Shown piece after piece: positions 5,055 through 47,443 of a stretch of DNA of 52,301 nt. How positions within the stretch are numbered: the first letter of the stretch is position 1; each line of letters starts with the position of its first letter. Position numbers and translations under genes: made by a program. Under the pieces are notes generated by a model. The model ran no database searches. It saw only the letters and a program-made list of their open reading frames with translations, and was not told where the DNA came from. Source of the stretch: Methylosinus sp. Sm6 (GTDB taxonomy: Bacteria > Pseudomonadota > Alphaproteobacteria > Rhizobiales > Beijerinckiaceae); NCBI RefSeq assembly GCF_019802345.1, contig NZ_JAINDZ010000031.1, forward strand, positions 1 through 52,301. The letters are read 5' to 3'.

Positions 5055-6398
5055 TCAGAACAACTCGATCCGCGGAGCGACGTCGACAACAGCCCTGCCG
5101 CGGCTCGCGAGCCGATGGACGTTGCGCTGCTCCTCGGTCACATAGTCGGACGACAGACCATCCAGGAGATCGGCGAGGCTCGGCTCGCCCAGCGGGGGGC
5201 GGCCGGCTTCGTCCAGCCTGCCGCGGAGCGTGGCGATATGCGCTCCCACCGCTGAGGACATTTCGACGAGCTGCTCGACTTGCTGACGGACGATATCCTG
5301 GAACTGGATGCTGCCCATCATCGCCATGATGGGCTCAGCGAGACGCTCGTTCTCGTTGGCCATCTGCTTGATGAGGTCGGCATGATAACCGCGGACTTGC
5401 TGTTGCAGAACTCGGGCGAGATTTCCCGATAGTCCGTCGAGAAAGGATGCGATTCTTTCCATCGCTTCCCGATGATGCTTCTCGCGAGTCTCGGATTGCG
5501 TCAGCAGGCTGTCGCTGATCGACGTCATCAGCGCGTGGACGCGCGCATGCAAATTGTTCGCCAGCTGCTGCACCTCATCGGCGAGCGTGCGAATTTCCAT
5601 GCCGATGATGGAAAAGCCCGGACCCAGCTCGCCGGCGCGCGCGGCCTCGATCGACACATTGAACGACAGCATGGTCGTCTGCTTGGCGATTCGGCGCACG
5701 TCGTGGAGGGCGGTGAGCAGTTCTTTCGTTTCGTCGGCGATCTTGCAGCGGAACTTCTCCGCGTTCGCCGCCTCGTTCCCTTCCCGTGTCCGTTCCCTCG
5801 CGCCGAAATCGTCGAGGAGAGCTTTGTAGGCGGACAGGCTCTGCTCGATATCGCACAGAGCCTCGTTGATGCGATGCTCGGACTGGCCCTGGCGCTGTCG
5901 AATGAGATCGAGAAGAGTGTCGAGCCGTCGGTCGACCGCGGACAGATCGGAGAGCAGCGCCTCGGCGGCTTCGCTGCTGGTGTCGCTGATGGCCCGGAGC
6001 TGACGATTCAATATATCGACATACAGCGGAAAGCCGTCGAAGGTCGTGACGAGAGTCTCGAAGTCGGTTCGTTCCACGACGGCCATGGCGACAGGCGGCG
6101 CGGCGGCAATGGACGCGGTCGATTCGGCCTCGCTCGCGGGGGCCGTCTGGTCGAAAGCCGCCTGCGGTCCTTTTTCGTTCCGAACGAGAGCCGTCCGGCC
6201 GTTCTCGACGGCGACGTCCTTCGCCAGGCGATAGCCGGCGAGCAGAGCGCCGAAAGCGACGAGCGACGTCGCGCCGGTCGGCGGCCTCCAGAGCGACAGG
6301 TCGACGCCGATCGCGGCGGCGGCCGACAACACGGCCACGGTCAGGGCGCCCCGAGGCAGGCTCGCGCCGAGCGACGGCTTTCGATCGATCTGGTTCAT
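5055..6398 (-). CDS. Membrane methyl-accepting chemotaxis-like protein with short signalling domain
   Basis: Protein of 447 aa. Two hydrophobic segments near the N-terminus (about 16-36 and 40-60) are separated by only a few residues, so there is essentially no periplasmic sensor domain. A cytoplasmic helical region follows. The hairpin tip typical of chemoreceptors is recognisable but divergent ([19 protein letters not shown], about 240-260). I chose the ATG at 6398 because GGAGGGAAGACGAG precedes it. The frame stays open further upstream but without homology. The C-terminal part has QFQDIVRQQVEQLVEM, seen in cytoplasmic chemotaxis-related proteins. It may feed the adjacent chemosensory operon. 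Confidence 0.82.
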   Translation of the reverse strand: MNQIDRKPSLGASLPRGALTVAVLSAAAAIGVDLSLWRPPTGATSLVAFGALLAGYRLAKDVAVENGRTALVRNEKGPQAAFDQTAPASEAESTASIAAAPPVAMAVVERTDFETLVTTFDGFPLYVDILNRQLRAISDTSSEAAEALLSDLSAVDRRLDTLLDLIRQRQGQSEHRINEALCDIEQSLSAYKALLDDFGARERTREGNEAANAEKFRCKIADETKELLTALHDVRRIAKQTTMLSFNVSIEAARAGELGPGFSIIGMEIRTLADEVQQLANNLHARVHALMTSISDSLLTQSETREKHHREAMERIASFLDGLSGNLARVLQQQVRGYHADLIKQMANENERLAEPIMAMMGSIQFQDIVRQQVEQLVEMSSAVGAHIATLRGRLDEAGRPPLGEPSLADLLDGLSSDYVTEEQRNVHRLASRGRAVVDVAPRIELF

Positions 6399-7104: not shown

Positions 7105-9033
7105 ATGACGATCGTCAAAAAATACCAGAGGCAGATAAACGACGCGATGACCGAGGTCGTTCAGGCGCGCGCGTCTGGAGCGGGATCGCGTGACGCCGAT
7201 CAGCAGCGCAAGCGGGCGCGCACGCTCGCCAAGCAGCAGCAGGCCGCCGAGCGCATCGCCGCGGCGACGGCCGAGATCTCCAGCGGCGTCAAGGACGCGG
7301 CCTCCTCTTCCGAGGAGCTGAAGCGGGCGACGGACCAGATCGCCTCGGGCGCCGCCGAAGCGGCCAGCGCCGCGCAGGAATCGCTGGTGGCGTGCCGCAC
7401 GATGGGCGAAGCGATTTCCCGCCAGCTCCGCGCCACCGAGATGAGCCAGACCAAGGCGGAGGCCACGACGGCGCTGGTTCAGCGCGCCGGCGCCGAGATC
7501 GCCACGCTCATCTCCAATGTGTCGACCGCCGCGGACCGGCAGGCCGGTTCCGTGAAGCTCATCGCCGAGCTCGAGCGGCAGGCCGCCAATATCGGCGATA
7601 TCGTCAAGGCCGTCGGCCGCATCGCCGATCAAACCAATCTGCTGGCCCTCAATGCCGCCATCGAGGCCGCCCGCGCCGGCAAGCACGGCAAGGGCTTCGC
7701 GGTGGTCGCCGACGAAGTGCGCACGCTGGCGGAGACCTCCGAGAAGTCCGCCAAGCAGATCGCCGATCTCGTCGGGCAGATCCAGGTCGACGTGAAGGCG
7801 ATCACCGAAGGAATCAACACCTCGGCCGAAAGGATCAACGGCGAGGTCGAGAAGGGAAAGACCATCGGCGAGCAGCTCGAGCAAATCCGCGGCAGCGCCC
7901 TCGAGATCGTCGATGGCGCGCGCGAGATCGCCACCGGCGCGACGCAGTCGAACGCCGCCGCGCTCCAGGCCCTGAAAGGCTCGGAGGAAATCGCGGCGGC
8001 CGCCGAGCAGCAATCGGCCGCCGCCGAGGAATCGGCCAAGTCGGTGCAGGAGCAGGCGCAGGCTCTCGCCGAATGCGAGCAGACCGCGCAGGCGCTGACC
8101 GAGCTCTCAGAGGATCTGCGCAATTCGACCGACATAGCGAAGAGCTCCGAAGAAGTGGCCTCCTCCTCCGAAGAGCTTTCGACCGCCATTCAGGAGATCA
8201 ATCGTTCCGCGACGCAAATCCTGGCGGCGCTCGACGAGATTCGCCGCGGCACGCAGACGGCGGCCTCCGCCACCGCCGAGAGCGCCGCCGCCATGGGACA
8301 GATCGAGCGTGGGCTGGAGATCGCGCAGGCGCGATCCCAGGCGAGCGTCGACAAGCTCGGCGTCATCAAAACTCTGCTCGGCTCCAACAAGGCCGCCGTC
8401 GATCAGCTGATCTCCGGGATTCAGAATTCGGCCGCGGCCACGCGCTCCTCGATCGATCAGGTCAAGGATCTGGGCGTCGTCTCGCGACGGATCGACAAGA
8501 TCGTCGAAGCCATCGCCAATGTGTCGATCCAGACCAACATGCTGGCCGTCAACGGCTCGATCGAGGCCGCGCGCGCTGGCGAATATGGCAAGGGCTTCGC
8601 CGTGGTGGCGACGGACATTCGCAATCTCGCCCGCGATTCGGCCGAGAACGCGGATCGCATCAAGGATCTCGTCAAGAATGTTCAGGATCAAATCCAGGCC
8701 GTCAGCCGCGATCTCGACGAGATCGTCGAAGCCGCGCTCGTCGAGGTGGAAAAAGCCAAAGCGACGACAGCCTATCTCGTGACGATCGAGAACGACGTCT
8801 CGGACGTGGAGCGCGGCGCCGTCGACATATCGGCGACCGCCAACGAGATCGCCGCCGCGATCGGCCAGGCGAAGCGGGGTGTGGAGCAAATCTCCGCCGC
8901 CGCCCAGCAGGCGGAGCGCGCCGCCGACGAAGCCGCCGCCGCCGCCCGCCAGCAGTCGCAGGGCGCGGAAAGTCTCACCAATGCGGTCGAGCAGGTCGCC
9001 TCTCTCGCCGACGAATTGCAGACGGCCGCCTGA
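7105..9033 (+). CDS. Soluble chemoreceptor with two tandem MCP signalling modules
   Basis: Protein of 642 aa with no transmembrane segment or recognisable ligand domain. It is almost entirely heptad-rich helix. Two separate receptor hairpin tips are present: a canonical one at about 173-206 ([33 protein letters not shown]) and a second at about 470-505 ([34 protein letters not shown]). Each is flanked by long Ala/Glu-rich coiled coil. Ordinary receptors have one tip per polypeptide. It is the first gene of the chemosensory operon, 14 nt before the CheW gene, so it probably nucleates a cytoplasmic array with the downstream CheW and CheA proteins. Confidence 0.92.
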
Positions 9034-9047
9034 CGGGAGCGCTTCAG

Positions 9048-10583
9048 ATGTCTTCAGACGACATGGTCCTCGACGAGGAAGACGCGCCCGAGATCGAGAC
9101 GAACGACAATCAGTTCGTCACCTTCCATGTGGCCGGCGAAATTTTCGCGGCCCCGATGGCGCCGGTGCAGGAGATCATACGGGTGCCGGGGCTGGCGCAG
9201 GTGCCGCTCGCGCCGCTTTCGCTGCTCGGCCTCGCAAATCTGCGGGGCCGCATACTGCCGATCGTCAATCTGCGGCGAATCTTCGGCCTCCCCGATGTCG
9301 AGGAGAACGAAGCGACGCGAGCCCTGGTCATCAACCTCGGCTCGCCGCTCGGCTTCGTGGTCGATCGCGTGGCGAGCGTGATCGCGGTCGACAAGGCCAG
9401 CATCGAGCCGGCCGCCTCGATCGGCGCCATCGGCGACTCCAAATATCTTACCGGAGTCGTCAAGAACGCCAATGGCGAGCTGATCATGATCCTCGACTTT
9501 TCCGCCTTGATCGAACGGGAGTTCTCGAGCGCGATGGCCCGTCGGACGATCGGCCTCGACATGGCGAGCGAGGCCGCGGTCGATCGCGAGCCCAATGACG
9601 ACGACGCCAATGCGGACGAGATCCAGCTCGTCTCCTTCCACATCGACGGGCAGGAATATGCCGCGGACATCGTCGCTGTTCAGGAGATCGTGCAGATGCC
9701 CGAGCGGATGGCGGCGGTTCCCAACGCTCCATCGCATGTTCTCGGCCTGATGACGCTGCGCGAACGGCTGTTGCCGCTGGTCTCGCTGAGAGCTCTGCTC
9801 GGGCTCTCCGAGATGAGCGCCAACGATTCGCAGCGCATCGTGGTTCTCGGTCTGCGGGAAGGCCATGCCGTCGGCGTGGTGGCCGATTCTGTCGACGAGG
9901 TGCTGCGCGTGCCGCGCGAGCAAACGGAACTCCTGCCGTCGATTCTCTCGCAGAAGGGCGGACTCGAGGAAATCTCCGCCGTCTGCCGCCTCGACGGCGG
10001 CAAGCGGCTGGTGTCCGTGCTCGACACCGCCCGCATGTTCACCGACGCGGAAATGCGTCAGACGCTTGCCGCGATCAATGAAATGGAGACGGACGTGGCC
10101 GATGGTGACACAGAAGAGCAGGACACGATCGAAGACGAGGAGCAGGTCGTCGTCTTCCGGCTCGGCGGCGAGGAGTTCGGAGTTCCGATCGCCACCGTTC
10201 AGGAAATCGTGCGCGTACCCGAGGCGCTCACCCATGTGCCGAAAGCGCCGTCTTTCGTCGAAGGCGTGATCAATCTGCGCGGAGCGGTGCTGCCGGTCAT
10301 CGATCAGCGCCGGCGCCTCGATCTGACCACGATCGAGCGCAACGACCGTCAGCGGATCATGGTCTATGCGATCAGCGGACGACGGACCGGCTTCATCGTC
10401 GATTCGGTGACCGAGGTGCTGAAGATCCCGCGCGCGACCATCGAGCCCGCGCCGAAGCTGTCCGCAGATCAGCACCGGATTCTCGGACGCGTGGCCAATC
10501 TCGAGAGTCAGAAGCGCGTGATCATGCTGATGGATCCCGACGCTCTGCTCTCGGACACGGAACTCGGCGAACTCGCTGCGTGA
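9048..10583 (+). CDS. cheW: Triple CheW-domain coupling protein
   Basis: Protein of 511 aa made of three consecutive CheW-like domains, at about 22-160, 190-335 and 364-500, joined by acidic linkers. Each carries the family pattern, for example FHVAGEIFAAPMAPVQEIIR ... LANLRGRILPIVNLR and VVFRLGGEEFGVPIATVQEI ... INLRGAVLPVIDQR. CheW normally is a single domain that links receptors to CheA. A triple version could bridge several receptor or kinase units in one array. I chose the ATG at 9048 because it is the first start in the CheW frame after the receptor stop and has GGGAG upstream; the same frame is open far upstream inside the receptor gene but carries no homology there. Confidence 0.93.
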   Translation: MSSDDMVLDEEDAPEIETNDNQFVTFHVAGEIFAAPMAPVQEIIRVPGLAQVPLAPLSLLGLANLRGRILPIVNLRRIFGLPDVEENEATRALVINLGSPLGFVVDRVASVIAVDKASIEPAASIGAIGDSKYLTGVVKNANGELIMILDFSALIEREFSSAMARRTIGLDMASEAAVDREPNDDDANADEIQLVSFHIDGQEYAADIVAVQEIVQMPERMAAVPNAPSHVLGLMTLRERLLPLVSLRALLGLSEMSANDSQRIVVLGLREGHAVGVVADSVDEVLRVPREQTELLPSILSQKGGLEEISAVCRLDGGKRLVSVLDTARMFTDAEMRQTLAAINEMETDVADGDTEEQDTIEDEEQVVVFRLGGEEFGVPIATVQEIVRVPEALTHVPKAPSFVEGVINLRGAVLPVIDQRRRLDLTTIERNDRQRIMVYAISGRRTGFIVDSVTEVLKIPRATIEPAPKLSADQHRILGRVANLESQKRVIMLMDPDALLSDTELGELAA

Positions 10584-10593
10584 GCATCCGCAC

Positions 10594-11676
10594 ATGGGAC
10601 TGAAAGTTCTCGTCGTCGACGACTCGGCGCTGATGCGCAAGCATCTGACCTCGCTTCTCGCCTCGGAGGGGTTCGAGATCCGCGCCGCCCGCAATGGGCG
10701 GGAGGCTCTTTCCGAGCTCGTCGTCTTTCAGCCCGACGTGATCACGCTCGACATCAACATGCCGGAGATGGACGGCCTCACCACCCTTTCCCACATCATG
10801 ACGGAACGGCCGACGCCGACCGTCATGGTGTCCTCGCTGACCAAGAGGGGCGCTCTTGCGACCTTCGAAGCGCTGGCGCTCGGCGCGGTCGATTATATCG
10901 CCAAGCCCGGCGGCACGATCTCGCTCTCGATCGACGACATCGCGCGCAAGCTCGTCGAGAAGGTGAACATCGCCGCGAGAGCCCGCGTCAAAGGCCGTAT
11001 CGAACGCAGGCTCACGGATGCGCCCGCAACGGCGCGCCCTCTCGCGGCGCAAGCGGCGCCCATGCGCGCGCGCGCACGCGCCTATGCGACCCAGCCGGCC
11101 GCGTTCGGCCTGGTGCTCGTAGGCGTATCCACAGGCGGTCCGCGCACGCTCGAGGAAATTTTGTCGCGACTGCCAGCCAATCTGCCCTGGCCAGTGCTGA
11201 TCGCCCAGCATCTTCCGGCCGCCTTCACCGCGTCGTTGGCCAATCGCTTGAACGGCGTCTGCGCGCTCCATGTCGAGGAGGCGACCAATATGAAAGAGAT
11301 TCTCCCGGGCAATGTCTATATCGGCCGAGGCGGATCCGACCTCGCCGTGGCGCGGCGAGGCGGTCGCCTCGTCATGCTCAATCAACCGGAGTCTCCAGAT
11401 CATAATTGGCATCCGTCGGTAGAAATTCTGGTGTCGACCGCGCTCGACAACGTGCCGCCCAAGAGCCTCGTCGCCGTCCAGCTCACCGGAATGGGAAACG
11501 ACGGGGCCGAAGCGATGGCCGAGCTGAAAGCGGCCGGCGGCAGGACCATCGCCGAAAGCGAGGAGACGGCCGTTGTTTTCGGCATGCCAGCGGAGCTGAT
11601 CAAACGCGGCGGAGCCTCCTGCGTTCTGCCGAGCGGCCGGATCGCCGATCAGATCAGGCTGTGGCTCACCCATTGA
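10594..11676 (+). CDS. cheB: CheB protein-glutamate methylesterase
   Basis: Protein of 360 aa that removes methyl groups from receptor glutamates when phosphorylated by CheA. The receiver domain (1-120) has the DD pair (VLVVDDSALMRKH), the phospho-acceptor Asp in ITLDINMPEMDG and the Lys in DYIAKPGG. The C-terminal esterase domain shows the catalytic triad motifs: Ser in LVGVSTGGP, His in LIAQHLPAAF and Asp in TGMGNDGAEAM. The gene starts 10 nt after the triple CheW gene. The linker (about 125-165) is Ala/Arg-rich. Confidence 0.96.
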   Translation: MGLKVLVVDDSALMRKHLTSLLASEGFEIRAARNGREALSELVVFQPDVITLDINMPEMDGLTTLSHIMTERPTPTVMVSSLTKRGALATFEALALGAVDYIAKPGGTISLSIDDIARKLVEKVNIAARARVKGRIERRLTDAPATARPLAAQAAPMRARARAYATQPAAFGLVLVGVSTGGPRTLEEILSRLPANLPWPVLIAQHLPAAFTASLANRLNGVCALHVEEATNMKEILPGNVYIGRGGSDLAVARRGGRLVMLNQPESPDHNWHPSVEILVSTALDNVPPKSLVAVQLTGMGNDGAEAMAELKAAGGRTIAESEETAVVFGMPAELIKRGGASCVLPSGRIADQIRLWLTH

Positions 11677-11728
11677 AGGCGGTCGCGACGACAAAGCGGC
11701 GCGCACATTTGCTCGAGGGAACAAACGC

Positions 11729-12361
11729 ATGCCGATTCGCAAGGCGACACATGCAACGCCCGTCGAGCCCGACGAGACGGTCCGTCCGTCTCGCGAGCTC
11801 GGCGAATTGATCCAGCTGATCCAGAAGGGAGCGATCGCGCAACGGCTCGACGCCGCGCATAGTCTCGTGGCCTTCGGCGAAGTCGCGGCGGAAGCGCTTT
11901 GCGCCGCGCTGTTGAACGAGGCGGACCACGCGCTTCGCGACGCCATCGCCGTCTCTCTCGCGCGTGTCGGCGGACGCAGCGTCGTGAGCGGGCTAGCGCC
12001 GATGCTCCGCTCCAACGACCCCGCCATTCGCAACATCGCCGTAGATATATTGAAGGAGCTGCCACATGACGTGGCGCCGCTCATGGAGACGCTCCTCGGC
12101 GATCCGGACCCGGATGTGCGCATCCTCTTGGTCAATGTTCTCGGTTCTTTGCGTCACGCCAAGGTCGAATCGTGGCTGATCGGCGTCGTCGACCGCGACG
12201 AGAACGTCAATGTGGTCGCGGCGGCCATAGAGGCGCTCGTCGAGATCGGCGGCGCGGCCGCTCGAGGCGCGCTGTCGCGAGCGGCCGACCGCTTCTCCCA
12301 TGAGCCCTTCATCGTCTTTTCCGCCGAAAGCGCTCTCCATCACATCAGCAGCCGCGCATGA
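11729..12361 (+). CDS. HEAT-repeat protein embedded in the chemosensory operon
   Basis: Protein of 210 aa consisting of about five HEAT/PBS-lyase-like helical repeats (for example ALRDAIAVSLARVGG, DPAIRNIAVDILKEL, DPDVRILLVNVLGSL, NVNVVAAAIEALVEIG). Such solenoids usually mediate protein-protein contacts; no enzymatic motif is visible. It has a GAGGGA ribosome-binding site. Its stop overlaps the CheR start (ATGATGG around 12358-12361), so it is translated together with the receptor methyltransferase. A role as adaptor for methylation or array assembly is inference from position. Confidence 0.85.
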   Translation: MPIRKATHATPVEPDETVRPSRELGELIQLIQKGAIAQRLDAAHSLVAFGEVAAEALCAALLNEADHALRDAIAVSLARVGGRSVVSGLAPMLRSNDPAIRNIAVDILKELPHDVAPLMETLLGDPDPDVRILLVNVLGSLRHAKVESWLIGVVDRDENVNVVAAAIEALVEIGGAAARGALSRAADRFSHEPFIVFSAESALHHISSRA

Positions 12362-13212
12362 TGGCCACGACCACGATCAGCGCTGAGGATTTCGCCCGCT
12401 TTGCGGAGTTCTTCTATCAAAAGACCGGCATTCTGTTCGACGACAGCAAGCGCTATTTCGTCGATCGACGGCTCGCCGATCGCATCAAGGCGACCGACAG
12501 CGTCGACGTCCCCGCCTATCTCAGGCTGCTTCGACTGGACATATCGGGCCGGGAAGCGCAGGCGCTGACCAATCTGATGACGGTCAACGAGACCTACTTT
12601 TTCCGCGAGGCCTATCAGTTTTCCTGCCTGACCGATCATCTGCTCGGCGAGATCATACGCAGCAAGCGCTCGGCGGAGCCGATCCGCATCTGGTCGATGC
12701 CGTGCTCCACTGGCGAGGAGGCTTATTCCATCGTCATTCATCTGATGGAGCGCTGGGGCGCCATCGACAGCTACGATGTCGAGATCCTCGCTTCCGACAT
12801 CGACACGCATGTCCTCGATCAAGCGCGCAAAGGCGTCTACTCGCCGCGCTCCGTGCAGAGCATTTCCGCCGATCTGCTCGCGCGCTATTTCTCGCGCCAC
12901 GGACATGGCGCCTGGCAAATCAGCTCGGATCTTCGCGACTCGGTCGAGTTCATCCGGGCCAATGTCATCGATCGGCCGGACATGTCGCGCTTCGCGAAGA
13001 TGGACGTCATCTTCTGCCGCAACCTGCTCATCTATTTCGACGACATGTCGCGGCGGGCGGCGGCGGAGGCGTTCTATGAGGCCATGAACCCCGGCGCCTT
13101 CATCTGCCTCGGCCATTCCGAATCGATGAGCCGCATTTCGAGCCTGTTCAAAGCGCGTCGCTTCGGCTCGACGATCGTCTACCAGAAGCCACTGCTCGGG
13201 GAGGCGCTGTGA
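12358..13212 (+). CDS. cheR: CheR chemotaxis receptor methyltransferase
   Basis: SAM-dependent O-methyltransferase of 284 aa that methylates receptor glutamates. It contains the CheR N-terminal helical domain, MTVNETYFFRE (about 78-88), the SAM-binding loop WSMPCSTGEEAYSIV (about 114-128), ILASDIDTHVL and CRNLLIYFDD (about 219-228). It overlaps the HEAT-repeat gene upstream by 4 nt and meets the cheY gene downstream at a TGATG junction. It has no tetrapeptide docking tail or extra TPR domain, as expected for a stand-alone CheR. Confidence 0.96.
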   Translation: MMATTTISAEDFARFAEFFYQKTGILFDDSKRYFVDRRLADRIKATDSVDVPAYLRLLRLDISGREAQALTNLMTVNETYFFREAYQFSCLTDHLLGEIIRSKRSAEPIRIWSMPCSTGEEAYSIVIHLMERWGAIDSYDVEILASDIDTHVLDQARKGVYSPRSVQSISADLLARYFSRHGHGAWQISSDLRDSVEFIRANVIDRPDMSRFAKMDVIFCRNLLIYFDDMSRRAAAEAFYEAMNPGAFICLGHSESMSRISSLFKARRFGSTIVYQKPLLGEAL

Positions 13213-13583
13213 TGAAGAAGGCTCTCGTCGTCGACGACGCCACGACCATGCGCATGTATCACCGCCGAATTCTCGTCGACCTCGGCTTCGAGGTCGACGA
13301 ATGCGTCAATGGCGTCGAGGCGATCGAGAAGTCGCTGCAGACGCGCTACGATCTCTTCGTCGTGGACGTGAACATGCCGAAGATGGACGGATACCGCTTC
13401 TTGAAGGAGCTGCGCTCGCGCCGCGACGTCCACCAGGCGCCGGCGATCATGGTGTCGACCGAATCGGAGGCCAAGGATCGCCACGCCGCCTATGTCGCCG
13501 GCGCCAATGTCTATCTCACCAAGCCGCGGCATACGGGCGCGCTGTTGCGCGCCGCCGCTCTTTTGACGGGGGAGGTCCAGTGA
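13212..13583 (+). CDS. cheY: CheY single-domain response regulator
   Basis: Receiver-only protein of 123 aa. The pocket residues are D8-D9 (LVVDDAT), phospho-acceptor D52 (VVDVNMPKMDGY), Ser/Thr in VSTES and K104 (YLTKPR). I chose the ATG at 13212 (TGATG overlap with the cheR stop); an in-frame GTG sits three nt earlier. The gene overlaps the cheA GTG start (13580). It is the likely phosphoryl output of the operon's CheA, but there is no flagellar gene in the window, so the target may be something other than a flagellar motor. Confidence 0.93.
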   Translation: MKKALVVDDATTMRMYHRRILVDLGFEVDECVNGVEAIEKSLQTRYDLFVVDVNMPKMDGYRFLKELRSRRDVHQAPAIMVSTESEAKDRHAAYVAGANVYLTKPRHTGALLRAAALLTGEVQ

Positions 13584-16258
13584 ATCCGCTTCTCCAGCAA
13601 TTTCTCGTCGAGGCCCGCGACTATCTCGATCAGATCGATCACAAGCTCCTGCTGCTCGAGGAGGCTCCCGAGGACGACGCGATCATCGGCGAGATTTTTC
13701 GATTGGTTCATACGCTCAAAGGCAATTCCGGCCTCTTCGACATGCCGAGCCTGACGATCGTTCTGCATGCGGCCGAGGATGTCCTCGATCGGGTGCGCGA
13801 TCACACGCTCCTGATCGACCCGGAGCTGACCGATGCGCTGCTCGCAGCCCTCGATTTCGTCAATCGCCTGCTCGACGACGTCGAGGCGACCGGCGCCGTT
13901 CCCGCCCGCTACGCGGACGACGCGTCGGAGCTCGCGGGCGCCTTGCGTGACAGGCTGCCCGAGCGAAGCGAGACCGGAGACGACCCGAGCAGACAGGCGT
14001 GCGCGCCGCTCGAGCCGCCCGCGGACTGGTTCTGGTTGAGCGCCATTCCCGACCTCGAACGTCTCGAGGCTTTCGAACGGCTCGCGCCAGACGAGAACGC
14101 CGTCGCGGTGCGCTATCGGCCGGAGCCCGACTGCTTCTTCAAAGGCGAAGATCCGTTGCAGCTGCTGCGGACGACGCCGGGGCTTCTCTTGTTCGACATC
14201 GGGCCCGCCGAGCCATGGCCGGAGCCCGACAGCCTCGACGTCTATCGCGCCAATCTCGTCGTCGACGCCTTGACCAGCGCAAGCCTCGAGGAGATCGAGC
14301 GCCATTTCCGCTATGTGCGGGATCAGACGGCGATCTATGAGATTCCCCGCTACGCGCTGGCGCTTCCCGAGGCGTCATTGGCGATCGACTCGACCGATAT
14401 GATCGCCTCGGCGTTCCTGGACGAAGCGCGCAGGCTCACGGCCGCCGCCGATTGGAGAGGGCTGAGCGCGGCGGCGGAAGCCGCCCTCGACGTCATCAAT
14501 CCCACGCGAGCCTGCGTATCCGCGCTACGCTGGATCATGAAGATCGCGGGCTCGACGGATCGCGCCGACATCGTCGAGCCCTTGATCGCCGCAACCGTCG
14601 GCGGGCCGGCGCGGCCCGACTGGCGCGCCGTCTCCGTCGCGGGAGCGCTCCGAGGCGCCGGCGCGCCGCTGGCGGAGCGCGCGATATCCGACCGCTCGAA
14701 CAGTTCCGACGAGACGGCCGTGAGCTATCGCGCACTGGCGCTCGCGCAAATCGAAATGCTGTCACTTTCGACGACGGTCGCGGAGCAGCCGGGGCGCATC
14801 GCCTCGGTCCGCAATGCGCTTTGCGGACTGCTGACCTCCGCCGGCAGGACGGACGCGCTCGACGAGCTCGACAGGACGGCGGCAGCATGCGACGAACATG
14901 CAGATGCGAGCGGGCTCGTCGCCTTCATTCGTTCGGTCGTGTTGAACGAGGAAGCGGCCGCGTCCGTTAAGCCGGCGCTCGCTGTCGCGGGCGGCGGAAA
15001 TTCATCGGAGCCGCTCGACGCGCGCGAGGCGGCGCCGCTTTCGGCTAAGCGGTTCGCCGCCGAACCCTCTCCAACGGACCGCGGCGTGCGCGTGCTGAAG
15101 GTCGGTCAGGAGAAGGTCGACCGACTGATGGATCTGATCGGCGAGATGGTGGTCGCCAAAAATGCGCTTCCCTATCTCGCCGCACGCGCGGAGGTCCATT
15201 ACGGCTCACGCGAGCTGAGCCGCGAGATCAAGGCGCAATATGCGATCATCAACCGCATCGCCGAGGAGATGCAGGACGGCATCATGCAGGTGCGCATGCT
15301 GCCGGTCGGCGCGATCTTTCAGCGCTTTCCACGCCTCGTGCGCGACGTGGCGCGGCAGCTCGGCAAATCGGTCCGGCTGACCATCGAAGGCGAGGAGACC
15401 GAAGCCGACAAGAACATCGTCGAATCGCTCGCCGATCCGATGATCCATATCCTTCGCAACAGTCTCGATCACGGACTCGAGCCTCCCGACGTTCGCCGGG
15501 CTGCAGGAAAGCCCGAGGAAGGCCGGCTCACGGTGCGCGCCTTTCAAGAGGGCGACCGCGTTCTGATCGAGGTGGAGGACGACGGCAAGGGGATCGATCC
15601 CGAGGTGATCAAGCGCAAGGCGCTGGAGAAGGGGCTGATCGACGAGCAGCGGTTGGAGACGCTCGCCGACACTGACGCGATTCAGCTCGTCTTCGCTGCA
15701 GGCTTCTCGACCGCCGAGCAGATCTCCAGCCTCTCGGGGCGCGGCGTCGGGATGGATGTCGTCAAGTCGAGCCTCGAGAAGGTCGGCGGACAGGTCCAGC
15801 TGACCAGCGAGAAGGGCAAGGGCGCGCGCATTCTCCTGTCGCTGCCGCTGTCGATCAGCGTCTCGAACGTCATGATGGTGGACATCGGCGGCCAGCACTA
15901 CGGCGTGCCGATCGATGTGGTGGTCGAGACCGTGCGGGTGGCGCGCAAGGACACGCATGTCATCAAGCAGCATCGTACCGCCGTCCTCAGAGGGCGCGTC
16001 GTTCCGCTCTACAGCGCTTATGATCTGCTCGGCTCCGTCGGCGATCCTGCGCCGAATGCCGACGACGAGTTCGCGGTGCTGGTCGCGCGCGTTGCGGGCC
16101 ACACTGTCGGCGTCATCGTCGACGGCTTCGCCCAGACGATCGATGTGATCCTGAAGCCGCTCGAAGGACCGCTGGCGCATTTGACGGGTTTCTCGGGCAG
16201 CGCGCTGCTGGGCGACGGAAGCGTGCTGCTGGTGATCGATCTGAAGGAGCTGATCTGA
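13580..16258 (+). CDS. cheA: CheA histidine kinase
   Basis: Protein of 892 aa. Domains: N-terminal HPt with H44 (IFRLVHTLKGNSGLF), a long middle part (about 120-500) with no domain I recognise, dimerisation helices (about 510-580), the HATPase core with N-box IHILRNSLDHGLEPP, G1 VEDDGKGIDPE and STAEQISSLSGRGVGMDVV, and a C-terminal CheW-like domain (about 755-890). It has one HPt only and no receiver. I chose the GTG at 13580 because it has GGGGGAGG upstream and overlaps the cheY stop by 4 nt. It autophosphorylates in response to the receptor array and passes phosphate to CheY and CheB. Confidence 0.95.
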   Translation: MNPLLQQFLVEARDYLDQIDHKLLLLEEAPEDDAIIGEIFRLVHTLKGNSGLFDMPSLTIVLHAAEDVLDRVRDHTLLIDPELTDALLAALDFVNRLLDDVEATGAVPARYADDASELAGALRDRLPERSETGDDPSRQACAPLEPPADWFWLSAIPDLERLEAFERLAPDENAVAVRYRPEPDCFFKGEDPLQLLRTTPGLLLFDIGPAEPWPEPDSLDVYRANLVVDALTSASLEEIERHFRYVRDQTAIYEIPRYALALPEASLAIDSTDMIASAFLDEARRLTAAADWRGLSAAAEAALDVINPTRACVSALRWIMKIAGSTDRADIVEPLIAATVGGPARPDWRAVSVAGALRGAGAPLAERAISDRSNSSDETAVSYRALALAQIEMLSLSTTVAEQPGRIASVRNALCGLLTSAGRTDALDELDRTAAACDEHADASGLVAFIRSVVLNEEAAASVKPALAVAGGGNSSEPLDAREAAPLSAKRFAAEPSPTDRGVRVLKVGQEKVDRLMDLIGEMVVAKNALPYLAARAEVHYGSRELSREIKAQYAIINRIAEEMQDGIMQVRMLPVGAIFQRFPRLVRDVARQLGKSVRLTIEGEETEADKNIVESLADPMIHILRNSLDHGLEPPDVRRAAGKPEEGRLTVRAFQEGDRVLIEVEDDGKGIDPEVIKRKALEKGLIDEQRLETLADTDAIQLVFAAGFSTAEQISSLSGRGVGMDVVKSSLEKVGGQVQLTSEKGKGARILLSLPLSISVSNVMMVDIGGQHYGVPIDVVVETVRVARKDTHVIKQHRTAVLRGRVVPLYSAYDLLGSVGDPAPNADDEFAVLVARVAGHTVGVIVDGFAQTIDVILKPLEGPLAHLTGFSGSALLGDGSVLLVIDLKELI

Positions 16259-16494
16259 TGACGCAACGTCTGATGAAAGCCAAGGCGGTGCTCAGCGGAC
16301 ATGTGACGGTGGAGGCGGCCGCGTCGCTGCTGCAATGGATGATCGACCATCCGAAGGCGGAGCTGCATTTGAGCGGCGTGACGCATCTTCACGCCGCGGC
16401 GCTGCAGGCGATCGCGGCGTCGAGCAACCGCATCGCGAGCGCGCCGGAAGATCCTTTCTGCGCGAAGGCGCTGGCGCGGCTCGGCAGGACATGA
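16258..16494 (+). CDS. Small STAS-like protein, coupled to cheA
   Basis: Protein of 78 aa whose ATG overlaps the cheA stop (TGATG). The pattern HLSGVTHLHAAALQAIAASS resembles the core of STAS/anti-sigma-antagonist domains (beta strand, then the helix following the usual D-S-x-G motif). The phosphorylatable Ser position is occupied by Ala here, so it is probably not a phospho-switch. Similar short STAS-like genes accompany some non-flagellar chemosensory operons. Family assignment rests on a short pattern and is moderate. Confidence 0.6.
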   Translation: MTQRLMKAKAVLSGHVTVEAAASLLQWMIDHPKAELHLSGVTHLHAAALQAIAASSNRIASAPEDPFCAKALARLGRT

Positions 16495-16555
16495 TGTGAT
16501 CGCCGGATAGACGCGGGACTGTGAGTCCGCGGTGCACTTTCGGAGCGGGGCGTTC

Positions 16556-17407
16556 ATGACGAGCGACGATGCCGGCGGCGGAGCCTTCGTGATCGCGGTC
16601 GCCAACCGGAAGGGAGGGACCGGCAAGACGACGACGGCGGTCAATCTCGCCGCGGGCCTCGCGCGCCGGAATCTGGCGACTCTGCTCGTCGACCTGGACA
16701 GTCAGGGCCATGCGGGGCTGGCGTTCGGCGCGGTTGCGGCGGCTGGCGAGGCCAATGTCCATCGGATATTCACCGAGGGCCCCGGGGCGCTCACTTCGGC
16801 CATCAGGCGGCTGTCGGGGCCGTCGCCCTGGCCCGATCTCGTCGTGGCCGACACACGGCGCCCGCATCCATCGGACGCGCCGCCCGACCTTCTCGCGCAG
16901 GCCTTGTCGAGCGATGCGATCCGTCGACGCTATGATGTGGTCGTCGTCGACACGCCGCCGTCCCTCGACGCTCTGATGGTCACCGCTCTCGCGGCCGCCC
17001 ATGCGGTGCTGATCCCGTTCGTGCCGCATCCGCTCGCCGTCGAGGGCGTGCGGCAGTTCACCTCGATCTTCTTCAAGGTGCGCCTGAGCAGCAATCGGCG
17101 ACTCCGCCATCTCGCGCTGCTGCCGGTGATGGCAAATGCGCAATTTCTGATTCACAGGCGCATGATCGACGCTGTGACGCAGGAGTTCGGCGAGCACCGT
17201 CTCGCCGGCCTCATCCGTTCGGATATTCGTCTCGCCGAAGCATTCGAGATCGGACGGCCGATATTCGATCACGCGCCTTCGAGCCGTGGGGCGCAGGACT
17301 ACGAAGCGCTCAGCGAACGGCTGTCGTCGCTCTGGCGACCGAATGGCGCCGCCGCTTCGGCCATGGCGGAGGCGGTCGAAGGACTCCGCGTGCGCCGCGC
17401 CGATTGA
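16556..17407 (+). CDS. ParA-family partition ATPase of the chemosensory operon
   Basis: Protein of 283 aa. The deviant Walker A is NRKGGTGKTTTAVNLA (about 18-33), followed by Walker A' LLVDLDSQGHAG and Walker B VVVVDTPPS. In chromosomes, orphan ParA homologues placed inside chemotaxis operons (PpfA of Rhodobacter sphaeroides, ParC of Vibrio) position and segregate chemosensory clusters. Its location as the last gene of an operon led by a soluble receptor points to the same job. I chose the ATG at 16556 because GGAGC is upstream; an in-frame GTG lies at 16532. No parB or parS-like feature was noticed nearby. Confidence 0.9.
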   Translation: MTSDDAGGGAFVIAVANRKGGTGKTTTAVNLAAGLARRNLATLLVDLDSQGHAGLAFGAVAAAGEANVHRIFTEGPGALTSAIRRLSGPSPWPDLVVADTRRPHPSDAPPDLLAQALSSDAIRRRYDVVVVDTPPSLDALMVTALAAAHAVLIPFVPHPLAVEGVRQFTSIFFKVRLSSNRRLRHLALLPVMANAQFLIHRRMIDAVTQEFGEHRLAGLIRSDIRLAEAFEIGRPIFDHAPSSRGAQDYEALSERLSSLWRPNGAAASAMAEAVEGLRVRRAD

Positions 17408-17455: not shown

Positions 17456-17830
17456 TCAGGCGGCGTTCACCACCACCTGTTTGACGACTTGGACGAGGGC
17501 GAGCGCATCGACTGGTTTCACGAGCCAGCCAGTGGCGCCGGCCGCTTTCGCGGCTCCGCGCTTTTCCTGCTGCGAGTCAGTGGTCAGCACCAGTATCGGA
17601 GTGAAGCGGGTCGGGGCGAGACGACGAAGTTGTGCGATGAGCTCGACGCCATTCATGCCCGGCATGTGGTAATCGGTGATGATGAGGCTCGGCGACAAGC
17701 CGCCCTGGACCTTGGCGATCGCGGTATGGCCGTCAGTGGCCGTCGTGAAGGCGTAGCCGGCTTTCGAAAGGATGCCGGTCAGGCTCGCAAGCATCGTGGT
17801 GGAATCGTCGACCAGAAGAATGGGCTTCAT
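17456..17830 (-). CDS. CheY-like single-domain response regulator (second copy)
   Basis: Receiver-only protein of 124 aa. D8-D9 (ILLVDDSTTM), the phospho-acceptor Asp in IITDYHMPGMNGVEL, Thr in LTTDSQ and Lys in GWLVKPVD are all present. The ATG at 17830 follows a GAGG-type ribosome-binding site; the frame is open for another 26 codons upstream with no homology. It is convergent with the chemosensory operon and lies next to a diguanylate cyclase gene on the same strand, with a gap of about 190 nt between them. It could be a phosphate sink for CheA or act with the cyclase. Confidence 0.9.
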   Translation of the reverse strand: MKPILLVDDSTTMLASLTGILSKAGYAFTTATDGHTAIAKVQGGLSPSLIITDYHMPGMNGVELIAQLRRLAPTRFTPILVLTTDSQQEKRGAAKAAGATGWLVKPVDALALVQVVKQVVVNAA

Positions 17831-18023
17831 TTGTGGGGGTCCTCGCGAACGGCTGGTGTCTGCGCGCGAAAGCAGATGGCGGTAAAGCGTCTTCTCTACC
17901 TTCAGCATAAGCGGCGGCGCTTAAGAATTTCTGTATGGGATCGTCGACCGGCTTCCAAAATCGAACGCCGATAATGTCTGACAGAGCGCTTTGCATCCTC
18001 TGGAGTTTTGTGACTCGGTAGAA

Positions 18024-19160
18024 TTAGGATCCCGCGAAAACGACCCTGTTCCGCCCGGTCGCCTTCGCCCGGTAGAGCGCCGCGTCGGCTGCCCGCGTCG
18101 TCTCCCGATAGTCCGGGGCGCGCCCTTCGACCAGCGCGACGCCTACGCTCACCGTCGCCTGACCCTCGGCGAGAAACGAGGCCTCCTCGATGAAGGCGAG
18201 ACGAATCCGTTCCGCGACCGCCAATGCGATCTTCTGGTCTGCCGGATAAAGGAGAGCGGCGAATTCCTCGCCGCCGATCCGCGCCAGCGTGTCGCTGGCG
18301 CGGATGTTGCGCGTCGCCGTTTCGCCGAACACGGTCAGGACGTGGTCGCCGACCGCATGGCCGAACCGATCGTTGATGTCCTTGAAATTATCGAGGTCGA
18401 AGACGAGCACCGCGCTCGTCTGATCCGCGGAGGCCGATTTCGTCGCGCGTTCGATGGCCCGGTCGAAAGCGCGCCGATTGGCGACGCCCGTCAGCGGATC
18501 GCTCATCGCAGCGATCTCACGGCGGCTCGCCAAGCGCTCCTTCGAGAGGGCGATCAAAGTGAAGCCGAGGACTGCAGTGTAGCACGAGAGCTCCAGCCAG
18601 CGGTATTTCGTAAACGAGCTGCTCGTGAAGTGGGCGGCATCGATTTCGAGAAATGGAACCGAAACCGAAAGGATCACATCGAGCCCGGCCTGGAGCGCCG
18701 TGGCCCAGGCCGCGACGCGCGCCAGGACCAGACGCCCGTTCTGGTCGCGATTGTACGAAAACAGCTCGTAAGCCGTCATGATTTCGTAAATCGCGGCGAT
18801 CGCGGCGATTGCCGCGGTCCGAAGGTGAATGTCCTGCGTCCACAGTCCAGACAGCCAGACGAGCCCCCCGAGCAGCGCCGAACGAGATCGAAGAGGTCTG
18901 TCGGCGAAAACCGCGGCTCCCGTCCAGAGAAAGCCGCACGACCACAGCATGAGGGCGTTGCCGAGGACGATCGAGAGCGATTCGATCTGATTGCGGAACG
19001 CAAAGCAGAAAGCCGAGCTTCCCGCCATCAGGAAAGCCGCGGCCCACCAGCACAGTTCTCTCGCCTCCTCGTCGCTGCGCCAGATCACATAAATAAAGGC
19101 GCACAGAAGCAAGAGCATGAATGCGCTGAATAGAAACAGTGTCGGCGCCAAAGCGATCAA
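18024..19160 (-). CDS. Membrane-bound GGDEF diguanylate cyclase
   Basis: Protein of 378 aa that makes cyclic di-GMP from two GTP. The N-terminal about 200 residues are strongly hydrophobic with six or more predicted membrane segments (for example FLFSAFMLLLLCAFIYVIW). The C-terminal GGDEF domain has DPLTGVANRRAFD, VLVFDLDNFKDINDRFGH and the active-site loop RIGGEEFAALL. The usual inhibitory-site RxxD lies upstream (RASDTLARIGG). The start is a TTG at 19160 with TGGAG six nt upstream. No EAL domain is present. The location beside chemosensory genes suggests, but does not prove, a functional link. Confidence 0.93.
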   Translation of the reverse strand: MIALAPTLFLFSAFMLLLLCAFIYVIWRSDEEARELCWWAAAFLMAGSSAFCFAFRNQIESLSIVLGNALMLWSCGFLWTGAAVFADRPLRSRSALLGGLVWLSGLWTQDIHLRTAAIAAIAAIYEIMTAYELFSYNRDQNGRLVLARVAAWATALQAGLDVILSVSVPFLEIDAAHFTSSSFTKYRWLELSCYTAVLGFTLIALSKERLASRREIAAMSDPLTGVANRRAFDRAIERATKSASADQTSAVLVFDLDNFKDINDRFGHAVGDHVLTVFGETATRNIRASDTLARIGGEEFAALLYPADQKIALAVAERIRLAFIEEASFLAEGQATVSVGVALVEGRAPDYRETTRAADAALYRAKATGRNRVVFAGS

Positions 19161-20149: not shown

Positions 20150-21830
20150 CCTAAAAACCGCAGTTGAGCGAACGGTCGACTGATGGAGATACGGGTTTTC
20201 GGCTTCAGGTTGCATCAGCATGGCGCGAGGCGCTGCGGCGGACGTAGCAGGCGGCCGCCGAGGAGCGCCTGGAACGCCCGCGAGAGGATCGCGCGCCATT
20301 TTTGCCGCAACGTCGACTGCTCCGCATTTTCGACGAGCCCCCGTAGGAAGGCGGCGACCGCAGCCAGCGCCTCGGCGGCCGTCCGCGCGCCGGCATGCGC
20401 GCTCGTCACGCGCAGCGTCGTCTGCCGGGCGTGCCGCGTGCGCGTCGCTATGGCCGAGAGAAACAGCGGACGGCTGGTGATCGCCTCGCGATGCAAGCGC
20501 GGCTCGGCGAGGAGCACGAATATGTTCCACCAATCGTAGAACAGCGCCATGAGCCGCGCCGACAAGCGACAGCGCGCCAGATCATGCGTCGTGAAGCCGC
20601 CCCAGCCCCATTGGTTCTTCATCTCGTCAAAAATATTCTCCGCGTCACCCCTGTCGCGGTAGAGCTGACCGAACGCTTCTGTCTCTTCCACGAGCGAGGT
20701 GACCAGAACCGAATATTCGCAAGGCTCGCCGCCATGGTCGAACTCGGGGAAGGACAGCTGCGGCGCGCCGTTCTCGTCATCATAGGACAGCCCTACGGCA
20801 CCCTTCAATCGCCGGCGCAGCACGATCACGCGACGCTCGCGGCTCCATCCCAAAAGGCGAACCGCGCCTTCCTTCGCTTGAAAGCCGTGGCCCACATAGA
20901 TCCATTCCTGCGCGCGGCTCAGCTTCTCGATCATGCGCACGACATTCCTGGTCAGGCGCAGCTTGAACAGATAAGGCAGTCCGCGCGCCTCGGCCTCGCG
21001 CATGACGCCTTCGTTTTCAAAGCCGCTGTCGCCGCGCAGCAGCGTCGGCCAGCAGTCGCGCGGCAGACGATCGATCAACGCCCACAGGCTCGGCGCGGCG
21101 TGCTTCGACGCATGCTCGTCGCCAGGACACACGTCGACGTCGAGCACGAGACGCGCCTGCGCCATCGAATAAGTGTGATAGCAATGGCTCGGACGTCCCG
21201 GCTTTTTGGGATTATAGCCGAGGACCGCCCCTTCCTGATGGCCGTAGAGCGGCTTGACGGTCGTGTCGACGTCGAGGATCCACGGCTCGGCCAGCAAGGG
21301 CGCCACGCAATATTGCAAATGGCCGCGCAGCCATGCCGCGCCTTCGCTCTCGTCGATCGCTTTGAAGGCGCGCCGCACTGCATCTTCGCTGACGACCTTC
21401 TTCATGCCGAGCAGCTCCGGCAGCACGGCGTCGCAGCGCAGCGCCACTATATGAGCGTAGCGCTTGTGCCCGGCGAGCATGGCGAGCATCGCCGTGCCGA
21501 GAACGTCGCGCTTCTTGGGCGCATTGGGGCTGGCATAGCGCGGCGGACAATCGGCGACGAAGGCGTCGAACAGTCCGCTCGTTTTCAGGAAGTCGATGAA
21601 GAACGGCAGCTGCCCGAGCCGCGTCATCGCCGCTTCCTGATCCCATTCGACCCGGATCGCGCCGAAGAAGCTGTCGAGATCGACGCCCGCCGGCGCCTCG
21701 CCGACCACAACCGGCGATTGCTCACCCGCAGGGTGAGCCGAAGGAAGAGAGGAATCGTCCATCATGCGCTTGATAATGCGCCTCTCGCCTCATCCCTTCA
21801 AAGGGGAAACGCCCGGATTTAGGATGAAAC
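20145..21830 (-). mobile_element. Intact DDE insertion sequence (IS1380/IS4-like)
   Basis: The element is bounded by an 11-bp inverted repeat, TTCATCCTAAA at 20145-20155 and its complement at 21820-21830, and encodes one full transposase. The flanks show no target-site duplication and belong to different broken genes (fkbH-like on one side, ssuD on the other), which suggests a deletion between formerly separate sequences. The outer few bases of each repeat could be host coding sequence, so the ends are approximate. Confidence 0.65.
20215..21765 (-). CDS. DDE transposase, IS1380/IS4-like
   Basis: Full-length transposase of 516 aa. The first catalytic Asp is in WILDVDTTVKPLYGHQEGAV, the second in TLLRGDSGFENEGVM, and the Y-R-E-K signature in QLYRDRGDAENIFDEMKNQW. 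The N-terminus has LGQLPFFIDFLKTSGLFDAF and KKRDVLGTAMLAMLAGHKRY, typical of this group. No frameshift or internal stop was seen, so the element may be active. A start codon pair (ATGATG) at 21765 was chosen as the longest frame with family-like sequence. Confidence 0.9.
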   Translation of the reverse strand: MMDDSSLPSAHPAGEQSPVVVGEAPAGVDLDSFFGAIRVEWDQEAAMTRLGQLPFFIDFLKTSGLFDAFVADCPPRYASPNAPKKRDVLGTAMLAMLAGHKRYAHIVALRCDAVLPELLGMKKVVSEDAVRRAFKAIDESEGAAWLRGHLQYCVAPLLAEPWILDVDTTVKPLYGHQEGAVLGYNPKKPGRPSHCYHTYSMAQARLVLDVDVCPGDEHASKHAAPSLWALIDRLPRDCWPTLLRGDSGFENEGVMREAEARGLPYLFKLRLTRNVVRMIEKLSRAQEWIYVGHGFQAKEGAVRLLGWSRERRVIVLRRRLKGAVGLSYDDENGAPQLSFPEFDHGGEPCEYSVLVTSLVEETEAFGQLYRDRGDAENIFDEMKNQWGWGGFTTHDLARCRLSARLMALFYDWWNIFVLLAEPRLHREAITSRPLFLSAIATRTRHARQTTLRVTSAHAGARTAAEALAAVAAFLRGLVENAEQSTLRQKWRAILSRAFQALLGGRLLRPPQRLAPC

Positions 21831-47397: not shown

Positions 47398-47443
47398 TTT
47401 GCAACTCCGCGCGAATAGGGGGCTGACGTCGCAGGCCGGTCGA

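Follow-up and report, generated by a model that had tools for sequence, protein, structure and literature searches.

The nine genes at 7105-17407 of the window (the whole 52,301-nucleotide stretch of Methylosinus sp. Sm6 contig NZ_JAINDZ010000031.1 that was analysed), all on the plus strand, and two flanking genes on the opposite strand are identified from their sequences as an F9-class chemosensory system, a rare known kind that has been studied most thoroughly in Vibrio cholerae. We consider it probable that this module forms a two-layer array bridged by its receptor DosM, that the array is inherited through ParA by way of the DosM tail, and that the receptor-like protein MCP2 acts as a phosphatase of CheY/CheY2 and as a link to the membrane. 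A broader reading is offered tentatively, at less than even confidence: F9 arrays may exist in two forms, ParA-less and ParA-partitioned, with DosM in the latter as scaffold, receptor and ParB-like cargo adaptor for its own ParA lineage; in both, MCP2 may represent a novel chemoreceptor type in which a signalling hairpin interrupts a CheZ-type phosphatase, so that the enzyme could be docked into the array through the receptor-like tip.

Gene content and class of the module

Table 1 Features of the F9 module of Methylosinus sp. Sm6; positions are those of the window.
Feature	Positions	Strand	Remarks
MCP2	5055..6398	-	MCP-like, membrane-anchored (predicted), CheZ-like core, C-terminal IELF
MCP2 QFQDIVRQ motif	5283..5306	-	Residues 365-372; aligned with CheZ active-site motif
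DosM-like receptor	7105..9033	+	642 aa; Pfam MCPsignal, two stretches
DosM N-terminal tail	7105..7224	+	MTIVKK then basic linker; candidate ParA-activating peptide (compared with AAPs in PMC7993993)
DosM signalling tip 1	7639..7674	+	Residues 179-190
DosM signalling tip 2	8539..8574	+	Residues 479-490
CheW3 (triple CheW)	9048..10583	+	Three concatenated CheW domains
CheB	10594..11676	+	Receiver and methylesterase
HEAT-repeat protein	11729..12361	+	Recurring site between CheB and CheR
CheR	12358..13212	+	
CheY	13209..13583	+	First receiver of module; GTG start
CheA	13580..16258	+	892 aa, GTG start; Hpt, H-kinase_dim, HATPase_c, CheW
STAS-fold protein	16258..16494	+	78 aa
F9-type ParA ATPase	16556..17407	+	283 aa
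ParA deviant Walker A motif	16610..16633	+	KGGTGKTT
CheY2	17456..17908	-	Second receiver of module

The tight series from soluble receptor to ParA described in the original prediction is confirmed (Table 1): HEAT/CheR, CheR/CheY and CheY/CheA overlap by 4 bases, CheA/STAS by 1 base, and the remaining intergenic gaps measure 10-61 bases. MCP2 and CheY2 belong to the module as well; they were absent from that first list, being flanking genes read from the other strand. Rhizobium sp. NFR03 (L055) has the two upstream of DosM and on its strand.

The same gene order was to be sought in relatives, and the order DosM-CheW3-CheB-HEAT-CheR-CheY-CheA on one strand is present in 38 of the 61 related loci listed (automatic count; best 80 kept from a named-loci search over 590 stretches); the series is therefore not a product of chance. 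Among the other 23, nine lack HEAT or HEAT and CheY, one (L031) is complete but had its count spoiled by over-long frames, and 13 lack other genes, being mostly short or broken loci. A search for extra F9 loci in the orders of G409 and G439 gave none new.

The F9 class is marked by DosM, a sensorless receptor with two signalling domains, and CheW3 (PMC9321776). Tandem double signalling domains in the receptor, three concatenated CheW domains, and CheA and CheY in the same cluster are all present here, and the module encodes the adaptation enzymes along with DosM, CheW3 and CheA. The claim that unusual members set this operon apart thus does not hold, and uniqueness of the gene mix is rejected: DosM and CheW3 are the class signature, the gene order recurs in relatives, and the HEAT and STAS-like genes occupy the same positions there. 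On sequence alone the STAS assignment is weak, its Pfam match (E 0.038) falling short of the cut-off; the fold is predicted with pLDDT 95, and the top PDB matches of the model are SpoIIAA/RsbV-type STAS proteins (probability 1.00; best E 1.7e-3, none <=0.001), with many ClpP chains ranking after them.

The F9 system of Vibrio cholerae is described as a membrane-free, purely cytoplasmic double-layer array (PMC9321776, PMC7534058). As DosM and CheW3 define the class to which it belongs, the predicted soluble-receptor array is supported; by this analogy a cytoplasmic array is well supported here as an already known kind, not a new one. DosM, which spans both baseplates in the F9 model, would form rods, tipped by a signalling hairpin on either side, that bridge two CheA/CheW3 baseplates, as in V. 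cholerae, and the resulting two-layered array would be independent of the membrane. The hairpin tips lie 300 residues apart in 51 of 55 scorable DosMs, the present one included, and no transmembrane stretch is found in DosM (highest 19-residue mean hydropathy 0.94). Membrane independence, as originally predicted, calls for one reservation: MCP2, also encoded by the module, carries predicted N-terminal membrane helices.

Among the closest known systems, V. cholerae cluster I (DosM VC1403, CheW3 VC1402, CheA VC1397; F9) shares the double-hairpin receptor, triple CheW, CheA, CheB, CheR and two CheYs. To judge by its locus numbers (PMC7534058) and gene list (PMC11940527), CheW3 and CheA appear to be separated by four genes, just as they are in the present module. 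The available gene lists of that cluster give che genes only and leave ParA unmentioned; the two locus numbers between CheA and receptor VC1394 suit CheY plus one more gene, so that V. cholerae probably has no ParA there. The present module differs in having ParA and in carrying CheY2 and MCP2 on the opposite strand at its flanks.

The ParA lineage and the DosM tail

Linked ParA genes are present in 20 of the 49 F9 loci compared; since the other 29 lack one, ParA is dispensable for the class. The motif KGGTGKT is of ParA type, its signature lysine (K19) is kept in all 20 F9 ParAs, and the nearest solved structures are ParA-family and Soj proteins. The 20 sequences form one clade (SH-aLRT 97, first tree) spanning Deferribacterota and Pseudomonadota, separate from ParA-ParB-type, ParC, FlhG, MinD and RepA relatives in a tree that contains no PpfA sequence. 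The ParA trees are quick trees with long-branch warnings; alignments held 20 of 22 ParA, 32 of 35 STAS and 31 of 37 MCP2 sequences, long or uncertain ends being excluded. Other genomes supplied the 29 'chromosomal' ParAs as best matches, which were named by resemblance, and a ParB-like neighbour was seen for the own genome; the three ParCs were named by position after CheB in CheY-CheZ-CheA-CheB clusters. The clustering with PpfA/ParC expected in the original prediction is accordingly not borne out as far as ParC is concerned, the three ParCs forming a clade of their own. Clustering with plasmid partition proteins, named beforehand as the outcome that would speak against the prediction, was not seen: a RepA type is rejected, the F9 ParAs standing apart from RepA, which was represented by two own-genome proteins only (NCBIfam RepA over cut-off). 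Neither a ParB gene nor a ParP-type partner gene is found among the annotated genes of the operon; the other Soj-like ParA of the same genome is followed by a gene identified by eye as ParB.

Presence of ParA was mapped on a quick F9 tree (the window and the 48 loci below L100 in which all four genes are present; F9-like loci only; warnings for long branches, L090 and L082, and for letter make-up). It requires 10 changes and is clustered, 1 of 500 shuffles being as low. ParA recurs at two positions in the gene order, following either STAS or MCP2. An unlinked F9-clade ParA is present in two genomes that have no linked gene, and in one of them (G050) DosM lacks the [KR]K pair considered below. 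With the F9 ParA profile, the ParAs of three control genomes score 314-375 bits; whole-genome searches for L064, L082 and L086, loci that stop within or close to MCP2 or CheA, gave no ParA above 240 bits, a threshold fixed once the scores were seen. A weak ParA-like gene adjoining CheA in L085 (97 bits) was scored as ParA-less.

Partition of the array by ParA is plausible from these sequences. The module's own ParA would bind the nucleoid and be stimulated by DosM, whose basic N-terminal peptides would be presented in multiple copies; by moving, spacing or splitting the array, ParA would pass it on to both daughter cells. Basic N-termini are employed by activators of ParA/MinD ATPases, among them TlpT of Rhodobacter sphaeroides, whose N-terminus is the proposed activator of PpfA (PMC7993993). 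In that organism the CheOp3 array is likewise cytoplasmic, and the ParA-like ATPase PpfA is encoded beside the soluble receptor TlpT; TlpT has a classical MCP coiled coil in place of the double hairpin of DosM (PMC3964821), and CheA is split (PMC6829392). ParA genes are common in che operons (77 of 206 species; PMC2829493).

An N-terminal [KR]K pair, a rule picked by eye after the sequences were seen, occurs in 17 of 17 scorable ParA-linked DosMs and in 10 of 26 others (Fisher 2e-5; loci with cut or broken DosM excluded); with kinship allowed for by independent pairs, the association is not significant (p 0.06-0.25). The looser rule of any two adjacent basic residues gives 17 of 17 and 13 of 26 (Fisher 4e-4; independent pairs p 0.25-1). 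Three loci without linked ParA (L236-L238), outside these counts, begin with MALVKT, MALIKK and MALVKT. A basic tail exclusive to ParA-linked loci was dropped as an idea, residues 11-40 being basic in both groups (mean net charge +2.9 with linked ParA, +3.4 without).

This shared basicity suits another arrangement, in which the DosM tail itself holds the array on the nucleoid and ParA does some other job, such as regulating assembly. The receptor FrzCD of Myxococcus xanthus has one signalling domain. It is similarly membrane-free with a basic N-terminal tail; it differs in binding DNA itself through that tail (PMC5716589), which lends the arrangement a precedent. The existence of a ParA lineage linked to F9 loci and the terminal dibasic peptide in every scorable ParA-linked locus argue against it, and we regard it as improbable. 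We put at a similarly low level a polar anchor of the ParC/ParP kind in place of partitioning along the nucleoid. ParC of F6 systems is also a ParA-family ATPase in a che cluster, with a known polar function and polar arrays (PMC5706961), and F9 components of V. cholerae are reported at the poles under low oxygen (PMC11940527); the clade of F9 ParAs is, however, separate from that of the three ParCs named by gene order, and the operon has no separate ParP-like gene. That ParA is a leftover or passenger partition gene with no relation to the array seems very improbable: its patchy presence on the F9 tree and its unlinked occurrence in two genomes would fit, whereas the single F9-linked clade across two phyla, the two recurring positions and the clustered presence would not.

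MCP2 and its likeness to CheZ

From its sequence, MCP2 appears to resemble CheZ with a receptor hairpin inserted, a built-in off-switch enzyme. Shared with CheZ are the D...Q helix, a partner helix bearing a TE.AA-type stretch, and a conserved short C-terminus (ELF in MCP2; DALF or LGF in CheZ genes); the differences are the chemoreceptor hairpin between the two helices and the predicted membrane helices. Q365, Q367, D368 and Q372 are invariant in 31 of 31 aligned MCP2s, so that a conserved helix carries a D of the active-site type and, four residues further on, the matching Q. The profile without the hairpin matches CheZ with probability 93.3 and score 53.5, reached by 0 of 40 heptad-permuted profiles (maximum 36.7; reversed 18.6). 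A profile of the C-terminal part of MCP2, run against six-frame translations of 60 genomes, also matches CheZ genes (E 6.6e-8 to 2.6e-4), finding CheZ in 7 of the 18 genomes with CheZ over the Pfam cut-off and missing it in 11.

A mere coiled-coil resemblance, with neither common descent nor phosphatase activity, is the rival to this reading. Background from coiled coils is high, as a DosM control profile scores 35.7 against CheZ (probability 17); the C-terminal part of MCP2 scores narrowly above its best permutation (40.2 vs 35.1), and the N-terminal part (23.4) is equalled by 3 of 40. Curated CheZ cut-offs are not reached: NCBIfam CheZ gives E 1.8e-4 and 21.1 bits (cut-off 350) for the present MCP2, Pfam CheZ gives it no match up to E 1, and five of 31 members match Pfam at E up to 1 (best 6.7e-4). 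A structure search with the MCP2 model led to chemoreceptors and coiled coils; CheZ is absent from the 50 matches listed. The joint score of both parts over its permuted and reversed controls, the invariant motif columns and the matches to CheZ genes speak against mere resemblance, which we judge somewhat unlikely.

The ELF end, conserved in 37 of 37 MCP2s and unlikely to be chance, was considered as a docking site. In the consensus of the CheR/CheB-docking pentapeptide, position 2 is tryptophan and position 5 phenylalanine (PMC7390727); counted from the start of the pattern, the second position in MCP2 is mostly I. Since CheZ-like relatives found without a receptor tip also end in IELF, DLF or DALF, a CheZ-type tail is favoured, with docking as a possible second reading. 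With its receptor tip, CheZ-like core and membrane anchor, MCP2 would dephosphorylate the module's CheY or CheY2 and may connect the array with the membrane itself or with a membrane signal.

Meaning for F9 systems

PMC7534058 gives the cellular role of F9 in V. cholerae as unknown, and the available text of that paper names no means of array inheritance. The less known part of the class is the ParA-bearing fraction of its loci. F9 modules with and without their own ParA form a natural set, with R. sphaeroides PpfA/TlpT as a worked case, so that the positioning of a membrane-free array and its sharing at division become testable. If MCP2 does combine a receptor with a CheZ-type phosphatase, the receptor itself would contain the means of ending the signal, and MCP2 relatives in other che clusters would need re-annotation.

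Composition and kinship of the F9 module

The nine-gene series of the original prediction (DosM, CheW3, CheB, HEAT, CheR, CheY, CheA, STAS-like, ParA) is present on a single strand, with overlaps or short gaps between genes. Pfam matches in the series are as follows: two MCPsignal stretches in the first gene, the receptor DosM; three CheW domains in the gene after it, CheW3; CheB with a receiver; HEAT repeats; CheR; a receiver; the Hpt, dimerisation, ATPase, and CheW domains of CheA; and a ParA-type ATPase. DosM has no membrane stretch, in keeping with the soluble receptor proposed. Judged by sequence, the 78-residue product encoded 3' of CheA does not reach the STAS cut-off. Among structures matching its predicted fold (pLDDT 95), the anti-sigma-factor antagonists SpoIIAA and RsbV come first (best E 1.7e-3, probability 1.00), with many ClpP chains ranked lower.

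Features of the window discussed in the text
Feature	Position	Strand	Description
MCP2	5055-6398	minus	Divergent gene; 447 residues; predicted N-terminal membrane anchor and MCP signalling tip
Nine-gene series	7105-17407	plus	DosM to ParA
CheY2	17456-17908	minus	Receiver
GGDEF protein	18024-19160	minus	Diguanylate cyclase
Transposase	20215-21765		DDE type
Efflux genes	39849-47658		RND type (ACR_tran, HlyD-like)

The unusual members had been thought to set the module apart; DosM with tandem double signalling domains and CheW3 with triple CheW domains are architectures unique to F9 according to passages of PMC9321776, and the system is thus known in kind. The same passages report full F9 sets in 64 of 2781 species, sensory domains absent from 98% of DosM homologues, and frequent gene transfer. 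Cluster I of V. cholerae is an F9 system with a purely cytoplasmic, two-layer array, its baseplates consisting of CheA and triple CheW and its DosM forming an extended rod with a signalling domain at either end (passages of PMC7534058); the window likewise has both F9 signature proteins, DosM and CheW3. The two DosM signalling tips are 300 residues apart in 51 of the 55 aligned DosMs in which both tips are present, the window protein included, other spacings being 299, 265 (locus L059, with the frame also split), and 402 (twice, in Deferribacterota). For the latter two loci (L089, L090), a spacing of 402 rather than 300 leads to the prediction of a thicker array. The window module is a real F9 system, of a kind already known.

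CheW3 was searched for in 397 genomes of the order, 10 of which matched, and in 398 of the phylum, 9 of which matched; an alignment search in the class gave 5 of 385. All three counts include the genome of the window itself and G117, a genome compared. A named collection supplied 80 loci, the best of a list limited in length, roughly L055 to L099 being F9-like. DosM through CheA, seven genes in all, keep one order on one strand in 38 of 61 loci; beyond CheA, relatives carry STAS, CheY2, and MCP2, with ParA, when present, after STAS or after MCP2. The window and Rhizobium sp. NFR03 (L055) form a pair in a tree of CheW3, CheB, CheR, and CheA; they fall within a supported group of 23 loci, most of them beta- and gammaproteobacterial and a few from Acidobacteriota and Desulfobulbaceae. 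This nesting in the gene tree suggests that the module was acquired by horizontal transfer.

Two variant arrangements were seen. The Burkholderiales genome of L067 has two divergent F9 loci adjoining, one of them shorter (DosM, CheW3, CheB, and CheR with a receiver, within the stretch examined); Paraburkholderia loci L101 to L103 have a CheW3-like protein beside CheR and an MCP, with no DosM over threshold, which is a different arrangement.

The linked ParA and the DosM N-terminus

A linked ParA is found in 20 of the 49 loci of the F9 tree and requires 10 changes, a number as low being reached in 1 of 500 shuffles; strains of Thiobaca and Polaromonas and Rhizobium sp. NFR03 are among those with the ParA-linked module. 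When 59 ParA-family proteins are placed in a tree, these 20 fall into a single clade (SH-aLRT 97). Outside it are 29 Soj-like ParAs from other genomes, 3 ParCs and 3 FlhGs (named from position in F6-type clusters), and four further family members from the genome of the window: two RepAs, a MinD, and one whose neighbour is ParB-like. The expectation that ParA would not be plasmid-like holds with respect to the two RepAs; the grouping with ParC that was also expected is not found. The closest solved structures to the window ParA are ParA-family and Soj proteins. Thirteen places in its own genome match it, itself included, none of them on the three contigs with the other CheW genes.

Two unlinked ParAs, from Chromatium okenii (genome of L099) and from genome G050, joined the clade later, so that its tie to F9 is close without being strict. 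Of 34 genomes whose F9 locus shows no linked ParA in the stretch examined, only these two match above 240 bits (three control genomes, 314-375 bits; remaining matches, at most 230). The C. okenii gene, of which a cut copy lies on another contig, adjoins a small gene with a weak CheB match (39 bits), presumably to its receiver; no che gene was found in an 18-kb stretch with the G050 gene (L273). Counting the C. okenii one, small genes of this kind were noted at L057, L075, L098, and L274; in several F9 loci such a gene stands directly before ParA. Homologues of ParA encoded in che operons have long been on record (77 of 206 species; passages of PMC2829493); the main text of PMC9321776 lacks the word 'partition', and the passages listed from it and from PMC7184735 hold no statement on ParA.

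ParA/MinD ATPase activators are argued to share a short basic N-terminal extension, TlpT, the suggested partner of PpfA, being among them (passages of PMC7993993). DosM proteins open with a conserved MALVKK-type peptide; a variable linker comes next, then a basic stretch. Within the first seven residues, K or R is followed by K in 17 of 17 scorable ParA-linked DosMs and in 10 of the 26 others (Fisher 2e-5). After correction for kinship, some 4 of 8 independent pairs agree with expectation and none contradicts it (p 0.06-0.25). As the rule was picked after inspection of the sequences, a tie between this basic pair and ParA is a lead. Over DosM residues 11-40, mean net charge shows no difference of the expected sign (+2.9 in ParA-linked DosMs, +3.4 in the others). 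In G050, where a ParA of the F9 clade occurs unlinked, DosM lacks the basic pair; this genome either speaks against a ParA-activating role of the DosM peptide or has a ParA that serves something else.

MCP2 as a candidate CheZ-like receptor

The two genes flanking the nine-gene series, overlooked in the original prediction, encode products matching MCP2 and CheY2 of relatives. In the predicted membrane anchor of MCP2, hydropathy reaches 1.94, with helices 16-35 and 42-71 in the predicted model. A C-terminal ELF is present in 37 of 37 MCP2 proteins, and Q365, Q367, D368, and Q372 are invariant across 31 aligned ones. The MCP2 stretch GSIQFQDIVRQQVEQL aligns with CheZ AQDFQDLTGQVIKKMM, the D and Q of which are catalytic.

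With the receptor hairpin removed, the MCP2 profile aligns to CheZ across both helices (probability 93.3, score 53.5; reversed profile, 18.6; 40 heptad permutations, at most 36.7; DosM profile as control, score 35.7, probability 17). Taken singly, the C-terminal part reaches 40.2, against 35.1 for its best permutation, and the N-terminal part 23.4, attained by 3 of 40 permutations. Run against six-frame translations of 60 genomes, the C-terminal profile found 10 places also over the Pfam CheZ cut-off (E 6.6e-8 to 2.6e-4), in 7 of the 18 genomes having such a CheZ; it missed CheZ in the remaining 11. NCBIfam CheZ matches residues 308-399 of the window protein (E 1.8e-4, far under cut-off); Pfam CheZ, at E up to 1, matches 5 of 31 MCP2s (best 6.7e-4) and leaves that of the window unmatched. 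The structure search returned chemoreceptors and coiled coils, with no CheZ among the 50 matches listed, and the genome holds no CheZ over the Pfam cut-off. On the alignments, MCP2 may be read as a CheZ-type core with an inserted receptor hairpin, as a candidate only; the open-access papers searched gave no report that combines a receptor with CheZ in one protein.

Proteins of about 212-746 residues in other genomes (L211 to L235) have the MCP2/CheZ-like C-terminal part, many ending in IELF, DLF, or DALF, and would form a wider CheZ-like family; some of the nine scanned lack a receptor signalling domain in Pfam. At L239 and L240, MCP2-like and CheY2-like genes lie in che clusters showing no DosM-CheW3 pair.

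Output of the system

The GGDEF gene adjoins CheY2 on the same strand, the transposase gene is found some 2.3 kb past CheY2, and the efflux genes lie further along the window. Of the genome's three flagellin genes, two share a contig with a different CheW cluster, and it may therefore be this other system that serves flagellar taxis. The parts of this module worth following are the lineage of its linked ParA and the candidate CheZ-like receptor MCP2.
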